The translations under genes were made by a program, and so were the position numbers. 25,499 nt of DNA from positions 1 through 25,499 of the IMG/VR virus record IMGVR_UViG_3300030104_001163. One strand, given 5' to 3'. This DNA comes from a virus. Positions within the stretch are counted from its first letter, which is position 1. Each line of letters opens with the position of its first letter. Below, piece by piece: positions 836 through 11,081 of this stretch. The notes beneath the pieces are model-generated. The model did no database searches and had not been told where the DNA came from. It was given only the letters and a program-made list of their open reading frames with translations.

Positions 836-3313
836 ATGCCTAATAAAGGTAAATTTATAGGTAGTCAGGATAATCTATTTGTTCCTGATGCTCCCACTAT
901 AGGTTCAGCTACTGCTGGTTCTGGACAAGTATCAGTAGCATTTACTGCACCTTCTGATGTTGGTGGGGATGCTATAACACTATATGGTGCTAGTGCATTT
1001 TTAGCAGGAGCTACTATTAATTATAGAGTATCTGTTGGAACGGGTACATTATCTACAGGTGGTAGTGGTAATGTATACTTTATAGATGGTATTCCTACTA
1101 AGACACTAAGTTTAATAAAAGGGTTTACTTATGTATTTGACATGAGTGACAGCAGTAATTCAGGTCATCCATTGGCTTTTAAAAATGCTTCTGATGGTTC
1201 GTATACAACTGGGGTAACTACATCAGGTACAGCAGGTAGTGCATCAGCTACTGTAACACTTGTATTAGCAACAGATGCATCAGAACCTTCTAGTTATTAT
1301 TGTACTTCTCATGGTAATGGTATGGGAAATACTATATCACTTATAGAAGCTAGTGCATCTACAGATCCATTAGGTGCTGCTCAAGCAGGTACAACTGGTT
1401 CTTCTTCTCCTATAACAGTAACTGGCCTGTCTAATGGTACAAGTTACATAGCACAAGTATGGGCTATCAATGATTATGGTAATGGCCCATTATCTGCTGC
1501 AACAGCTAGTTTTACTCCAGTAAATGATAATGCTTTTTTTATATTAGGTCAAAACAGTAGTGGTACTGCTATTAATAGTATAGATCAAATATCTGTAGGC
1601 ACTACAGGCAATGGTACTGATTGGGGAGATTTAACTGTTGCTCACGGCAGAGAAAATGCTTCTGGTGGAAATAATACTAGGGTAATAGCTGCTGGTGGAC
1701 ATGATGGCAGCGATAGAAGTAATGTTATAGATTATTTTTCTACGTCTAGCTCTGGTAATGCTAGTGACTTTGGTGATTTAATAGCTGCTACTTCACTTAT
1801 AGCAGGAGGTATCAATAATAACGTAAGAAGTATATTTTTTGGAGGGGATGCTGGTGGAGTAACTCAAAATGTACTTCAGTATGTAACTATACAAAGCACA
1901 GGAAACAGTACAGATTTTGGTGATTTATTAGGTGCAACTTATGATTCAGTTGGAACGAGTAGTTCAACAAGAGGCATAACTTTTGGTGGTACTATTACAG
2001 GGTTAGATAACGATACAATATCATATGTTACTATAGCCAGTTCTGGTAACGCTACAAATTTTGGTAATTTATCTAATGGTGCAAATGGAGCGCAAAGAAG
2101 ACCCAGTGCAGTAAGTTCTTCTACGAGAGCAGTAAAAGCAGGGGGTTACAGTAATGAGTATTTAAATATTATCGAGTACATAACTATTGCTAGTACAGGT
2201 AACGCAACAGATTTTGGTGATCTTTCGAGAGGAGCAGGTTATATATCTGGAGCAGAAAGTTCTACTAGAGGAGTATTTACTGTTTCTAATGGTGGAAGTG
2301 CTGCTAATAACTTAGAATATATTACTATAGCTAGTACAGGTAATTCTACAGATTTTGGTGATCTTACTATTTCAGCTTTAAATGGTTCTGCTCACGGTGC
2401 AAATAAAGCAGCAGTACAAAACGAAACAGGTTTTGCCCCTGCTGCTATAGGGTTATTCGCAGGTGGTGAACCTTCTGCTGGTGGTACTCAAAGTACCATT
2501 GAATACATAGACATAGCTACTACAGGTAATGCAGCTATGTTTGGTGATCTTACAGGAAAACGATTTCATGTAGGCAGTGGTACTGGGGTAGCTTCTGCAA
2601 CTAGAGGTGTATTTCTTGGTGGTCACAGTGCAACAGATACAATTGAATATGTTACTTTTTCAACTAAGTCTAAAGCAACAGACTTTGGTAATTTAACCAG
2701 TAATATGTATGCTTTAGGAGCAGCCTCAAATAGCACAAGAGGACTAGGAATGGGAGGTCACTCTGGTGCAGCTGTAACTAATGTAATTCAATATATTACT
2801 ATTGCCAGTGCTGGAAATGCAACTGACTTCGGTGATCTTAATAGTACTAGTGAAGAAGGAATGTCGTTATCAAGTACAACTAGAGCAGTTCATGCTATAG
2901 GAGCATCTTCTGGTGCAAAAAATACATTAGAATATGTCACCATTGCTAGTACAGGTGACGCAACAGATTTTGGGGATCTTACAGATACTTCATATAGAGC
3001 ATCTACAGCAGCAAGTAATACTAGAGGTGTAGTAGCTGGAGGTTTAAGAGGTGGTTCAAATAGTAATGTTATAGACTACATTACCACGGCTAGTACTGGG
3101 AATGCTACTGACTTTGGAGATCTTACTTCTGCAAGATCTAGATTAAATGGAGTGTCATCAGGTGTAAGAGGTGTATTTGGTAGTAGCCATGATGTAACAG
3201 TTATGGATTATGTAACGATAGCATCAACTGGTAATGCTACAGATTTCGGAGATATGTTTTTAAATGCTGGATATAGAGGTACGGCATCAAGCGCACATGG
3301 AGGACTAGCATAA
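836..3313 (+). CDS. FN3/cupredoxin and double kelch-like propeller virion protein
   Basis: An 825-aa probable receptor-binding or tail-surface protein. Residues 17-50 begin a fibronectin type III domain (PDAPTIGSATAG... GGDAITLY) that resumes at about 176-229 (SSPITVTGLSNGTSY ... ASFTPV). Between the halves lies a cupredoxin-like domain (about 79-171) with a possible type 1 copper set: His111 (SGHPLAF), Cys156, His159 and Met163 (CTSHGNGM). From about residue 230 there are 12 kelch-like repeats of roughly 45-50 residues with the core ITIASTGNATDFGDL and a TRGVFAGG-like strand. They form two arrays of six, joined by a linker near 525-540 (AAVQNETGFAPAAIG), and suggest two six-bladed propellers. 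The C-terminus is SSAHGGLA. The gene starts after AAGGATTTTAA, and its stop overlaps the next start (TAATG). Copper binding and host recognition are inferred. Confidence 0.75.
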   Translation: MPNKGKFIGSQDNLFVPDAPTIGSATAGSGQVSVAFTAPSDVGGDAITLYGASAFLAGATINYRVSVGTGTLSTGGSGNVYFIDGIPTKTLSLIKGFTYVFDMSDSSNSGHPLAFKNASDGSYTTGVTTSGTAGSASATVTLVLATDASEPSSYYCTSHGNGMGNTISLIEASASTDPLGAAQAGTTGSSSPITVTGLSNGTSYIAQVWAINDYGNGPLSAATASFTPVNDNAFFILGQNSSGTAINSIDQISVGTTGNGTDWGDLTVAHGRENASGGNNTRVIAAGGHDGSDRSNVIDYFSTSSSGNASDFGDLIAATSLIAGGINNNVRSIFFGGDAGGVTQNVLQYVTIQSTGNSTDFGDLLGATYDSVGTSSSTRGITFGGTITGLDNDTISYVTIASSGNATNFGNLSNGANGAQRRPSAVSSSTRAVKAGGYSNEYLNIIEYITIASTGNATDFGDLSRGAGYISGAESSTRGVFTVSNGGSAANNLEYITIASTGNSTDFGDLTISALNGSAHGANKAAVQNETGFAPAAIGLFAGGEPSAGGTQSTIEYIDIATTGNAAMFGDLTGKRFHVGSGTGVASATRGVFLGGHSATDTIEYVTFSTKSKATDFGNLTSNMYALGAASNSTRGLGMGGHSGAAVTNVIQYITIASAGNATDFGDLNSTSEEGMSLSSTTRAVHAIGASSGAKNTLEYVTIASTGDATDFGDLTDTSYRASTAASNTRGVVAGGLRGGSNSNVIDYITTASTGNATDFGDLTSARSRLNGVSSGVRGVFGSSHDVTVMDYVTIASTGNATDFGDMFLNAGYRGTASSAHGGLA
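3299..3304 (+). promoter_or_regulatory. Shine-Dalgarno inside the HGGLA codons, for the second propeller gene
   Basis: GGAGGA lies within the codons for the C-terminal HGGLA of the first propeller gene, eight bases before the ATG of the second, which overlaps the stop as TAATG. The arrangement implies translational coupling. Confidence 0.7.
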
Positions 3314-5187
3314 TGGCTCCATCATTCTCAGGCGTATGGAATATATCTACACTCTATCAATATACCAGTGATGTACCTAGTCCACCTAAAAATGGGATTC
3401 TTGCTGGTGGTTTTAATAGTGGCTATGCTAATCGTGCAGACTATCAAACTATAAATTTTAATGATGGTAATGGTACTGATCAAGGTGATTTAACTTTAGC
3501 TAGATATGATATTGCTGGATTTGGTTCAACAACAAGGGCTGTATTTGCAGGTGGATATGGGTCTAGCGTTACAAATGTTGTTGATTATGTAGAACACGCT
3601 GCATTAGGTAATGCTACAGATTTTGGAGATCAAACTGTTGCAGGATCTGGATCAGGAGCGCATAGCAGTAATACTAGAGGTCTTGTAGCTAGTTTTACCA
3701 ATGCTTCTGGCGTGAATACACAAAATAAAACAATAGATTATTATACTATCGCTAGTACTGGTAATGCTACTGACTTTGGTGATTTATCTTCTAATAGAAA
3801 CTCTACGCAAGGTGGAGGTAGTACTACAAGGGCTATATTCTTTGCTGGTTATGCTTGGGGAAGTGGTGCTGTCAATGTAATTGATTCTGTAACTATTGCT
3901 ACTACTGGTGATGCAACCGATTTTGGAGATGCTTCAAATAGCATATACACTCATCATGCTAACGTAGATAGCACAACAAGATCTATATTTTTCGGTGGAT
4001 ATACAGGTAGTCATATAGATGTTATTGAGTATGTAACCATAGCAAGTAGAGGAAACGCAACAGATTTTGGTAACTTAGATCAGGCTCAAAGTGCTAGAAG
4101 TTCTGGTTTAAGTAACGGTACTATAGGAATACTTGCTGGTGATGTAGGAGGTACTAGTGCAAATAACCAAAAAATAACGATAGCATCTACGGGTAATGCT
4201 ACTGATTTTGGAACACTGCAAACATATGGTGGTACTTATATGGCATATCAAGGTAGTGCATCACCTCACAACCCAGCAGTACAACCTTTAGATGGTCTAC
4301 CATCAGCTATAGGTTTAACTGTAGGTTATGTAGATACATTTATTGAAGCAATAGATATTACAACATTAGGTAATAGTGTTGCTTTTGGTGATATAACTTA
4401 TTATAGAAATGCTTCTTATGGTGGAGCATCTTCCTCTACAAGAATGTGTATAGGAGGTGGTTATGAAGGAGGATATTTAAATAATATAGATCTTACAATA
4501 TTTTCTACTAGAGGAAAAGGAACAGACTTTGGTAATCTTACAGTAGCAAGAGGTACTACAGGTGGATCAAATAGTACAAGAGGTATATTTGCAGGAGGTT
4601 CAATAGCTTCACCTGCTCCATATCGTGTTAATACTATCGACTATATTACAATAGCTAGTGCAGGAAATGCTTCTGATTTTGGCGATCTTACAACAACATC
4701 AGAAGGACATGGCATGGCCGCAAGTACATCAAGAATGGTAATATTTGGTGCTAGGGAACAAAGTGGTTATTATAATACAATTCAATATGTTACTATAGCT
4801 AGTACAGGTAACGCCACAGATTTCGGTGATCTAGCACAAGCAAATGCTTATGGTGAGGCTACAAGCAATAGCACAAGAGCAGTTCATTGTGGTGGTTACA
4901 CTGGATCGTCAGGTTTAAATTCTATGCAGTATGTTACCATAGCCAGTACTGGAAATGCTACAGATTTTGGAGACTTAACAAGACAATGGACACAAGGAGC
5001 AGTGTTTAGTAATAGCACAAGAGGAATAGTTGCTGGAGGATATGACTGGGCAGGTGGTGGTGGTGCAATTTTTGATATTACATATTTTACTATAGCTTCT
5101 ACAGGTGACGCAGCAGACTTTGGTGATCTAACATTTTCTGGCTCTCTTCCTGCTGGTGCATCAAATGGTCATGGAGGTATAGCTTAA
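3313..5187 (+). CDS. Double kelch-like propeller virion protein (paralogue 2)
   Basis: A 624-aa paralogue of the preceding protein. It has a short N-terminal segment (MAPSFSGVWNISTLYQYTSD) in place of the FN3/cupredoxin module. The SGVW part resembles the anchor seen in the third family member. Twelve kelch-like repeats follow, again two sets of six, separated at about residues 318-333 by the linker NPAVQPLDGLPSAIG. Degenerate repeat cores include TDQGDL, VAFGDI and AADFGDL. The C-terminus ASNGHGGIA matches the first paralogue. The start codon overlaps the upstream stop by one base, and its Shine-Dalgarno (GGAGGA, 3299-3304) lies inside the upstream gene's terminal codons. A two-propeller host-surface binding protein is the best reading; the ligand is unknown. 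Confidence 0.7.
   Translation: MAPSFSGVWNISTLYQYTSDVPSPPKNGILAGGFNSGYANRADYQTINFNDGNGTDQGDLTLARYDIAGFGSTTRAVFAGGYGSSVTNVVDYVEHAALGNATDFGDQTVAGSGSGAHSSNTRGLVASFTNASGVNTQNKTIDYYTIASTGNATDFGDLSSNRNSTQGGGSTTRAIFFAGYAWGSGAVNVIDSVTIATTGDATDFGDASNSIYTHHANVDSTTRSIFFGGYTGSHIDVIEYVTIASRGNATDFGNLDQAQSARSSGLSNGTIGILAGDVGGTSANNQKITIASTGNATDFGTLQTYGGTYMAYQGSASPHNPAVQPLDGLPSAIGLTVGYVDTFIEAIDITTLGNSVAFGDITYYRNASYGGASSSTRMCIGGGYEGGYLNNIDLTIFSTRGKGTDFGNLTVARGTTGGSNSTRGIFAGGSIASPAPYRVNTIDYITIASAGNASDFGDLTTTSEGHGMAASTSRMVIFGAREQSGYYNTIQYVTIASTGNATDFGDLAQANAYGEATSNSTRAVHCGGYTGSSGLNSMQYVTIASTGNATDFGDLTRQWTQGAVFSNSTRGIVAGGYDWAGGGGAIFDITYFTIASTGDAADFGDLTFSGSLPAGASNGHGGIA
5173..5178 (+). promoter_or_regulatory. Shine-Dalgarno inside the HGGIA codons, for the third propeller gene
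   Basis: GGAGGT lies within the codons for the C-terminal HGGIA of the second propeller gene, eight bases before the overlapping ATG of the third. It has the same layout as at the previous junction. Confidence 0.7.
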
Positions 5188-6227
5188 TGACGCAAAGATA
5201 CCTTGGTGGAATAATAACAGCAAACCCAGTAGAACCATCTAGCAATCTATCTACTGCATCTGCATCTGGTATGTGGACATTACAAGAAGCATTGAGTTTC
5301 TATAGAGCAGGAGATTGGCCTGATGCTACTAATACGCCTACTGTTGGTCTTATCAAAGGAGGTTATGCAGCTTCAGCACCAACAAACACAGTTCAAAAAA
5401 TAGTTCCAGAAACAACAGGTAATGCTAGTGACTTTGGTGATTTGTCAGCAAGTAATTATGCTTTAGGCGCACTATCTTCAGATACAAGATCAATAGCTGG
5501 AGGTGGATATTATAATAATTCTGCTGCCACTAATATAATAGAATACTTTACTTTCGCCAGTGCTGGTAATGCTACAGACTTTGGAGATTTATCTGCTTCA
5601 GCGTACTACACAACTGGGATTTCAAATAATGTAAGGGGTGTATTTGCATTAGGATATGCAGGAAGTAATGTTAATACTCTTGAATATATAACGATAGCAT
5701 CAACAGGTGATTCTACAGACTTTGGCGATGCAACAGAAGTTAAACCTTTTGCTGCTTCTGTTGGAAGTTCTACTAGAGGTGTATTTGCTGGAAATACTAG
5801 TTTTAGTAACGTAATAGAGTATATAACTATAGCCAGTACAGCAAACGCTACAGACTTTGGGGATCTTACTACTTCTAGAGGTTATATGCATGGAGGAGCA
5901 AGTAGTAGTACTAGAGGCGTATTTGGACCAGGATTAGGTGGAAGTGGAAGTACTTATTTTAATACACTAGATTACATAACTATAGCTTCAACTGGCAATG
6001 CAACGGATTTCGGAGATGCATTAGCTGGTACATATGGTACAAGTGGTATGTCAAATAGTACAAAAGGAATATTTTTTGGTGGTCAAGATTCAGGTGGTAG
6101 GCTTAACGTAATACAACAGATTACAATAGCTACTACAGGCAACGCAACAGATTTTGGCGATTTACTTTCGATTAATTCTCAAAACGCATCTACTTGCTCT
6201 GGCAATCCAGCAGTGCAAGTAACATAG
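5187..6227 (+). CDS. Truncated single-propeller virion protein (paralogue 3)
   Basis: A 346-aa third member of the propeller family. The N-terminus (about residues 1-50) has an anchor-like motif, SGMWTLQEALSFYRAGDWP, of a type common in marine phage structural proteins. Six kelch-like repeats with cores SDFGDL or TDFGD(L/A) follow. The protein then stops after NPAVQVT, exactly at the NPAVQ linker that precedes the second array in paralogue 2. The family C-terminus ASNGHGGIA is still encoded just downstream, but in the -1 frame. The gene therefore looks like a double-propeller gene that lost its second array in an out-of-frame deletion, or that carries a frameshift. The six remaining blades may still fold. 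The start is supported by GGAGGT eight bases before the ATG and a TAATG overlap. Confidence 0.7.
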   Translation: MTQRYLGGIITANPVEPSSNLSTASASGMWTLQEALSFYRAGDWPDATNTPTVGLIKGGYAASAPTNTVQKIVPETTGNASDFGDLSASNYALGALSSDTRSIAGGGYYNNSAATNIIEYFTFASAGNATDFGDLSASAYYTTGISNNVRGVFALGYAGSNVNTLEYITIASTGDSTDFGDATEVKPFAASVGSSTRGVFAGNTSFSNVIEYITIASTANATDFGDLTTSRGYMHGGASSSTRGVFGPGLGGSGSTYFNTLDYITIASTGNATDFGDALAGTYGTSGMSNSTKGIFFGGQDSGGRLNVIQQITIATTGNATDFGDLLSINSQNASTCSGNPAVQVT

Positions 6228-9158: not shown

Positions 9159-11081
9159 ATGGCAGATCCAAGAGCAGGTGATACTAGACCTAACCCAAAT
9201 ACAGGAATACTTGAGTATTTTGATCCTAATTTAGGATCAGCAGGAGAGTTTACTACTATTCCTCAGAATAGACTTGATGAGTTTTCAGGATCAATTGAAA
9301 ACACTCTTGGTAGTATTCCAACTAATTATGCTGGTTTTGCACCTGCACCTGAAGGGCAACAAGCAACTATTGATCCTAATACAGGTCTTAAAGTATTCAC
9401 TCCTATTCCAATAGATCCTGCAACTTTATCTAGTGAAGACTTACAAAGAGCAAGTAACATTGCTGCTTTAGAAAATTTTATTGATCCTGCTACAGGGCAA
9501 ATTAGAGATGAGTTTACTGGTGGTGGTTTACCTAATATAGATGAGATACGTGACCAAGATCCTGCAACTTTTACACAAACAATAGAAGCACTTAAAAATA
9601 GAGAAAGAGGTAGACTAACAGGATTTAAAGGTGAGTTTACTGATTTATCTGGTGGAGAAGCATTAGAAGCATTTCAAAGTGCAGTAGGAACTAGAGCAGG
9701 TTTTGTAGATCCTTATGGTCAAAAAACTCAAATAGGTATGCAAGAAGACTTATTTAAGAATCCTCAGTCAGCTATGATACAGGGTACTTTTGATGAACAA
9801 AAATATCTTAAAGATTTTCCTGATGTTGCGGCGGCTGTTGCTGCAGGAACTATTACATCAGGTAAGGAACACTTTGATAAATTTGGCAATAAAGAACTAA
9901 GAGATGCATATTATAAGGGTGGTACTGTATTAGATTTAGAAGAGATACAAACTAAACCTGATGAGTTTTTAGATTCTGCACAATATGATTTAGATCCTAC
10001 TACAGGACAATTTGATGCAGCTACAGGTACTACAGCAGATGTACCAATGCCTACTAAGACAGATGAACAAAGTTTTACTGCTGATAAAAGTTTTGCTGAC
10101 GTTCAAAAAGAAAATATGGTTGCAGCAAAGCAACAAGGACTAACAGATATTGTTACAGCACAAACAGGAACAGTAGATAAACAAGCTACCGTACAAGGTC
10201 AATTAGAAGGTTTGATGGCTCAGTTTGAAGGTGGTAAGGTTCCAGCATTTGCTGCTGGTGCTATTCGATTAGCTGAACAAAGATTGGCTGCTAGAGGTAT
10301 GGGTGCATCTAGTATGGCTGGGGCTGCTATCGTACAGGCTGCAATGGAAGCTTCTACACCTATAGCTGCTGCTGATGCACAAACATATCGTAGTATGCAG
10401 GAGTTAAATTTAAATAACCAACAACAAGCAGAAGTTCTTAATGCTCAGATGACTATGCAGTTAGACCTAGCTAATCTTAATAATGAACAACAAGCTAGAG
10501 TTACTAATACATCTAATAGGGTCCAAGCATTGTTTAGAGATCAAGCAGCTACAAATTCAGCTAAACAATTTAATGCATCAAGTGAACAACAGAATGACCA
10601 GTTCTTTGCATCGTTATTTAATAACGCAAATCAGTTTAAAGCTGCTCAATCAAATGCTATGGAACAATTTAATGCTGGTCAAGAAAATGCTGTAGATCAG
10701 TTCAACGCTAGTCTACAAAACACTAGAGAACAGTTTAACGCAAAGAATGCAATCTTAATAGATCAGGCAAATGCAGTATATAAACGTAACGTAAATACAG
10801 CTAATACTGCTTTAAGAAATGCAGAGAATGAATTTAATGTTCGTAATTTATTTAATATAAGTCAAACTGCTCTTAATAATCTTTTGCAAGAAGATAGAGA
10901 TAAAGTTAATTTTGCAAGAGTTAATTCGTTAAACGATACCGCCTTTAAAAACCAACTGGCTTTAACTTCTTTTTCCTTTGATAGAAATTTACAAGTATCA
11001 AAAGAAATTGCAAGAGGAGCGCAAAGAACAAGAATTGTAAATACAGTTGTAGGTGGGATTGTAGATAAGGTATTTAGTTAA
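9159..11081 (+). CDS. Putative internal virion protein with QFNA-type repeats
   Basis: A 640-aa protein. Around residues 205-250 it has a YL-x(3)-PDV ... GKEHFDKFG unit, matching a short helical repeat (YLxxxPDVxxA...HYxxxGxxEGR) found in many secreted and structural proteins. Residues about 345-415 are Ala-rich, Met-containing amphipathic helices (RLAARGMGASSMAGAAIVQA). Residues about 465-535 carry at least six Gln-Phe units about 10-14 residues apart (QFNASS, QFFASL, QFKAAQ, QFNAGQ, QFNASL, QFNAKN), which would form a regular long helix. There is no signal peptide. Proteins with this composition in podovirus-like phages are usually ejected or internal core proteins; that is inferred from composition and context only. 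AGGAG precedes the ATG. Confidence 0.5.
   Translation: MADPRAGDTRPNPNTGILEYFDPNLGSAGEFTTIPQNRLDEFSGSIENTLGSIPTNYAGFAPAPEGQQATIDPNTGLKVFTPIPIDPATLSSEDLQRASNIAALENFIDPATGQIRDEFTGGGLPNIDEIRDQDPATFTQTIEALKNRERGRLTGFKGEFTDLSGGEALEAFQSAVGTRAGFVDPYGQKTQIGMQEDLFKNPQSAMIQGTFDEQKYLKDFPDVAAAVAAGTITSGKEHFDKFGNKELRDAYYKGGTVLDLEEIQTKPDEFLDSAQYDLDPTTGQFDAATGTTADVPMPTKTDEQSFTADKSFADVQKENMVAAKQQGLTDIVTAQTGTVDKQATVQGQLEGLMAQFEGGKVPAFAAGAIRLAEQRLAARGMGASSMAGAAIVQAAMEASTPIAAADAQTYRSMQELNLNNQQQAEVLNAQMTMQLDLANLNNEQQARVTNTSNRVQALFRDQAATNSAKQFNASSEQQNDQFFASLFNNANQFKAAQSNAMEQFNAGQENAVDQFNASLQNTREQFNAKNAILIDQANAVYKRNVNTANTALRNAENEFNVRNLFNISQTALNNLLQEDRDKVNFARVNSLNDTAFKNQLALTSFSFDRNLQVSKEIARGAQRTRIVNTVVGGIVDKVFS

Follow-up and report, generated by a model that had tools for sequence, protein, structure and literature searches.

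The 825-amino-acid virion (tail) protein encoded at positions 836 to 3313 of the window, i.e., the whole stretch of 25,499 nucleotides of viral DNA analyzed here (IMG/VR record IMGVR_UViG_3300030104_001163), carries a cupredoxin-like domain nested within its N-terminal fibronectin type III (FN3) domain. We consider it likely that this domain is a divergent cupredoxin-like, copper-binding and copper-stabilized beta-sandwich that serves as an accessory module in the C-C' loop of the FN3 domain, near the N terminus of the tail protein. The proposed module comprises about 110 residues with the ligand order His...Cys-x2-His-x3-Met and would have a type-1-like site for a single copper ion. Copper would mainly stabilize and shape a surface beta-sandwich, which in turn may serve the virion as an exchangeable module for spacing or adhesion. 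The module probably originated from bacterial surface cupredoxin-like proteins or is common to them and the phages, and it would have been moved between virion proteins. We infer three points, namely, that copper is the metal, that virions contain it in bound form, and that it has a structural or adhesive function and not one in electron transfer. The open-access literature searched contained no account of a cupredoxin in phage virions, and the domain appears to be undescribed in phage virion proteins.

Protein architecture and genomic context

The 825-amino-acid protein, which was delimited by its ORF, translation, repeat spacing, and gene context, and which like all features below is located on the plus strand, consists of the N-terminal FN3 domain with the nested cupredoxin-like domain, followed by repeats of about 48 amino acids (TDFGD..STRGVFAGG; nine FG[DN] marks were counted) that probably form a beta-propeller. 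The end of a tail-fiber-like ORF (1 to 438) and a small ORF (452 to 826) are located upstream, and a function in host recognition is plausible from the propeller-like repeats and the gene context. Directly 3' of the gene, two more proteins with the same TDFGD repeats of about 48 amino acids are encoded (3313 to 5187 and 5187 to 6227); their start codons overlap the preceding stop, and both are devoid of the FN3/cupredoxin part. Distant relatives of the product of positions 9159 to 11081 are encoded by Pelagibacter phage HTVC033P and the Roseobacter phages CRP-1 and CRP-3, which makes a remote relationship of the virus to these marine phages probable. A 1,617-amino-acid protein of the virus had no match among deposited phages.

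The FN3 domain and its insert

The first part of the FN3 domain, with strands A, B, and C (residues 16 to 53; positions 881 to 994), is defined by predicted strands at residues 21 to 28, 31 to 37, and 47 to 56 and by its relatives, and the remainder with strands E, F, and G (residues 185 to 228; positions 1388 to 1519) is defined by the Pfam fn3 profile and the full-length model. The FN3 sequence runs to about YGAS53 and picks up again at GTTGSSSPITVTGLSNG after an inserted segment of residues ~54 to 184 (positions 995 to 1387, right edge approximate), which was delimited by comparison with FN3 homologues that have an empty site. From the order of the strands, the insert would be positioned in the C-C' loop. 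Both FN3 sequence and FN3 fold are present on the two sides of the insert, as indicated by Pfam, uninterrupted homologues, and fold matches. The Pfam fn3 match (PF00041) covers residues 190 to 223 with an E value of 4e-4, which is below the curated gathering score, and in a model of residues 1 to 232 the shell around the insert still matches the NCAM FN3 domain 2haz (TM score of 0.73 by target length).

Searches with the N-terminal 60 residues retrieved relatives with and without the insert. The distance from YGAS to SSSP is 135 residues in the window versus 12 in the empty-site relatives with an intact FN3 domain (L166 to L172 and L178), whose flanks are 78 to 88% identical to those of the window. 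L166 is 91% identical before the insertion site and 85% identical after it, and the 12 residues in between are VTDGTNVIGATG. The insert is also present in L002 to L006 and L173 to L176, with homologous junctions in L005, L006, and L173 to L176, and the segment preceding it is 68 to 91% identical across filled and empty relatives. In a small, weakly supported tree of the FN3 shell (93 to 94 residues), each of the two subclades contained both filled and empty forms; the module has therefore probably been lost or exchanged since its insertion. Seven further proteins (L179 to L184 and L196) have the N-terminal FN3 domain in common with the window protein, but RCC1-type repeats (WGxNxxGQLG) replace the window repeats; judged by these sequences, the propeller is swapped behind a conserved N terminus.

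The initial annotation had proposed a cupredoxin-like fold inside an FN3 domain at positions 1070 to 1350. The nesting is corroborated by the predicted fold and by the filled and empty-site relatives. The location was likewise correct, but the extent was slightly short, with the folded domain spanning 1019 to 1348 and the insert about 995 to 1387.

Fold of the inserted domain

The cupredoxin-like domain comprises residues 62 to 171 (positions 1019 to 1348) according to alignment, model, and fold matches. The initial annotation had suggested structure prediction as a test of the cupredoxin barrel, and the domain-only AF2 model (residues 62 to 172; alignment A3 of 42 sequences) indeed yielded a barrel-type fold with cupredoxins as PDB neighbors. 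This model has nine strands, a mean pLDDT of 96.9, and a pTM of 0.88, and together with the PDB fold matches it indicates a Greek-key beta-sandwich/barrel of the cupredoxin type. Cupredoxin-fold proteins accounted for 47 of the 50 best matches, including CueO (many redundant entries), copper nitrite reductases, McoA, bilirubin oxidase, and SufI; among them are the copper nitrite reductase 2dv6_A (probability of 1.00, TMq of 0.60) and McoA 6syy (TMq of 0.60), 0.60 being the highest TMq. The E values of the PDB matches range from 0.012 to 0.1 and none is significant alone; the evidence therefore consists of a consistent pattern and not of a single significant match. The cupredoxin domains of 2dv6_A, CueO, and McoA are the closest solved folds, but they share only 12 to 18% identity with the phage domain at an rmsd of about 4 to 7 and are parts of multidomain enzymes with further copper sites. 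Predicted viral structures, including those of tail fibers, a neck protein, and baseplate connectors, matched the domain model with E values down to 1.7e-10.

The four predicted copper ligands

His111 of the GHPL motif (positions 1166 to 1168), Cys156 (1301 to 1303), His159 (1310 to 1312), and the predicted axial ligand Met163 (1322 to 1324) are invariant in 41 aligned homologues with 38 to 73% identity. The initial annotation had placed these residues correctly, and the type-1-type ligand set that it proposed is complete and conserved. As in cupredoxins, His, Cys, His, and Met follow each other in this order, and the last three are located in a C-terminal loop. In the model, a strand begins directly after His111, the penultimate strand ends with Cys156, His159 is part of a loop, and the last strand starts close to Met163. 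Plastocyanin has the same ligand layout relative to its strands.

Since search patterns that contain the motif bias ligand counts, copies were sampled from IMG/VR in a ligand-blind manner with the pattern G-x-T-Y-x-F-D-x-S-D-x-S, which is located upstream of all ligands (some T-ending codons were fixed). The sample comprised at least 82 copies, among the matches listed 62 with C-x2-H-x2-M, 9 with C-x2-H-x3-M, 10 degenerate ones, and an incomplete one. The H-x3-M spacing had been set against H-x2-M as the norm of similar phage domains, but both are phage subclasses (9 versus 62 of the 71 intact loops among the matches listed), and H-x3-M is also found in L279, a genuine bacterial cupredoxin above the Pfam cutoffs. 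Removal of short and >85% identical copies left 64 nonredundant ones among the matches listed; all four ligands were kept in 54 of them, the loss of a single ligand was observed in none, and Cys and Met were either both kept or both lost in all 64. The probability of this Cys/Met co-occurrence is 3.6e-11 if the copies are independent, a value that ignores kinship, as the 10 degenerate copies (among the matches listed) represent about six lineages. L308 and L325 are 71% identical, yet all four ligands are replaced in L308. The ligands are kept or lost jointly, a pattern expected of a shared metal site but not of packing alone.

These data bear on the alternative that the insert is a plain Ig-like accessory domain with a cupredoxin-like fold, which is metal free in the virion and uses Cys, His, and Met for packing or other chemistry. 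Many such modules are purely structural, about 16% of the sampled copies (among the matches listed) have lost the ligand set but are still recognized by the domain profile, and Ig V domains are among the results of sequence searches owing to a YYC motif. However, packing alone does not predict that Cys and Met are co-kept or co-lost across lineages, a second conserved cysteine with which an Ig disulfide could form is missing from the 41-sequence alignment, and the PDB fold neighbors are, with few exceptions, copper proteins rather than Ig domains. We therefore regard a metal-free Ig-like domain as unlikely, and an actual Ig V-type domain, as suggested by the antibody light-chain matches in PDB sequence searches, was rejected on account of the missing cysteine and the copper proteins among the fold neighbors.

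Relationship to known cupredoxins

The domain shares the ligand order His...Cys-x2-His-xn-Met and the beta-sandwich with small blue-copper proteins (plastocyanin/azurin family, PF00127; Cupredoxin_1, PF13473), but it differs in its Gly/Ser/Thr-rich middle, its location in a virion protein, and its nesting in an FN3 domain. The loops of amicyanin (C-x2-H-x2-M) and plastocyanin (C-x2-H-x4-M) each deviate by one residue from the C-x2-H-x3-M of the window, and azurin has C-x4-H-x3-M. The azurin-like spacing proposed in the initial annotation accordingly holds for the H-x3-M half but not for the Cys-His half, and an azurin-type loop, as present in the azurin-like L280 (CSFPGHSTLM), is ruled out by C-x2-H.

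Pfam and PDB searches with the single window sequence returned nothing useful. The window sequence is unreported by Pfam, its scores being below the cutoffs of PF00127 and PF13473, and the domain is accordingly not classified in either family; weak PF00127 matches were obtained for 4 of 41 relatives (best E value of 0.002). A profile of the phage domain retrieved L279, whose loop CAIHGSAM is of the C-x2-H-x3-M type. With a broader profile of the phage domain and its bacterial homologues, seven PF00127 cupredoxins ranked directly after the profile's own members and outranked every decoy, i.e., every reversed or unrelated ORF. Masking of the ligand columns sharply reduced the cupredoxin enrichment (1/16 in the top 7 and 5/16 in the top 30); the sequence link to cupredoxins therefore leans on the ligand motif. 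An hhalign comparison with PF00127 members resulted in a P value of 8e-4 at a probability of only 10%. The commonest weak Pfam match was PF25489, a plant At5g54830-like domain (9 of 41 members, best E value of 1.6e-4), which gives a hint of eukaryotic relatives of the family.

Distribution in marine phages and bacteria

A tblastn search with the window domain returned 45 phage records, and an H-x2-M member as the query retrieved 376 of 50,697 phage records, with essentially all of the 376 being marine. Nearly all carriers among the 376 are phages of cyanobacteria, Pelagibacter, and Methylophilales. A metal site on a phage host-recognition protein had been considered unusual, an expectation that does not agree with this abundance. 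PHROG matches of the domain belong to tail fiber, baseplate, and virion structural families, and its occurrence in tail fiber, baseplate, neck, and other virion proteins makes a role specific for one receptor unlikely. If copper is bound, many abundant ocean phages, namely those of Synechococcus, Prochlorococcus, Pelagibacter, and Methylophilales, carry an unannotated metal center on their particles. A far-reaching version, in which a horizontally spread family of virion cupredoxins routinely loads marine phage virions with copper and the occupancy affects host attachment and/or forms a copper-binding pool in seawater, is in our opinion distinctly unlikely. Natural controls are available within the family, i.e., intact versus ligand-lost copies (L325/L308) and filled versus empty FN3 domains (window/L166).

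Bacterial relatives were detected in 49 of 101 genomes of the order of the SAR86 locus and in 9 of 148 genomes of the "Candidatus Actinomarina" class; L246 to L249, which resemble phage contigs in bacterial metagenome-assembled genomes, were not regarded as cellular. The SAR86 and "Ca. Actinomarina" surface or lipoprotein-like proteins (L251 to L256 and L259 to L277) belong to the same family by profile (E values down to 1e-33) and mostly have the full ligand set, but they differ from the window protein in their bacterial origin and the predominant H-x2-M spacing, and many are distinguished by a signal- or lipobox-like N terminus and one C-terminal copy, some of them being short proteins. They are claimed by no curated Pfam family.

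Metal sites on phage tail proteins have a precedent in the iron-binding HxH tail fibers of T4 (gp37) and alterophage R22Y (gp12), for which a Trojan Horse hypothesis has been published (PMC11705849). A copper center on virions would, if true, be a parallel to this idea, but the known fibers have iron instead of copper and HxH ligands, and the comparison is limited to metal and ligands. In an analogous "copper Trojan horse," a metal-uptake or metal-binding protein on the host surface would recognize the copper-loaded domain and thereby raise adsorption. Such docking would be in line with the domain's presence on tail fiber-type proteins, the life of marine hosts in metal-poor water, the published iron-binding fibers, and the domain relatives in SAR86 and Actinomarina surface proteins. 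However, the domain also occurs on virion proteins distant from the receptor tip, such as baseplate and neck proteins, it is located N terminal of the propeller-like repeats in the window protein, and close relatives lack it at the same site. Docking is possible, but less so as a general role because the domain occurs in many virion positions, and overall we judge it to be very unlikely. A redox or copper-buffering domain that carries electrons or sequesters copper or superoxide at the cell surface during infection, as its lipoprotein-like bacterial relatives may do, is highly improbable despite the complete type-1-type ligand set and the resemblance of L259 and L267 to L269 to membrane-anchored small cupredoxins, since the placement in virion proteins is varied and electron transfer is unlikely because neither a redox partner nor an enzyme domain was detected in the carrier proteins.

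L021, L025, L009, and others are proteins of about 455 amino acids with two tandem cupredoxin-like domains, both with full ligand sets. SAR86 also encodes surface-type proteins of about 3,500 amino acids with one or two domain copies (L251 to L256 and L260 to L265); in L263, ligands are lost in the copy at residues 69 to 179 and kept in the other one. In BFVD, two giant-virus entries from Pithovirus- and Marseillevirus-named viruses that are labeled "beta-sandwich proteins" (A0A481Z6J5 and A0A481YVH3) resemble the domain model with E values of ~4e-5 to 4e-4.
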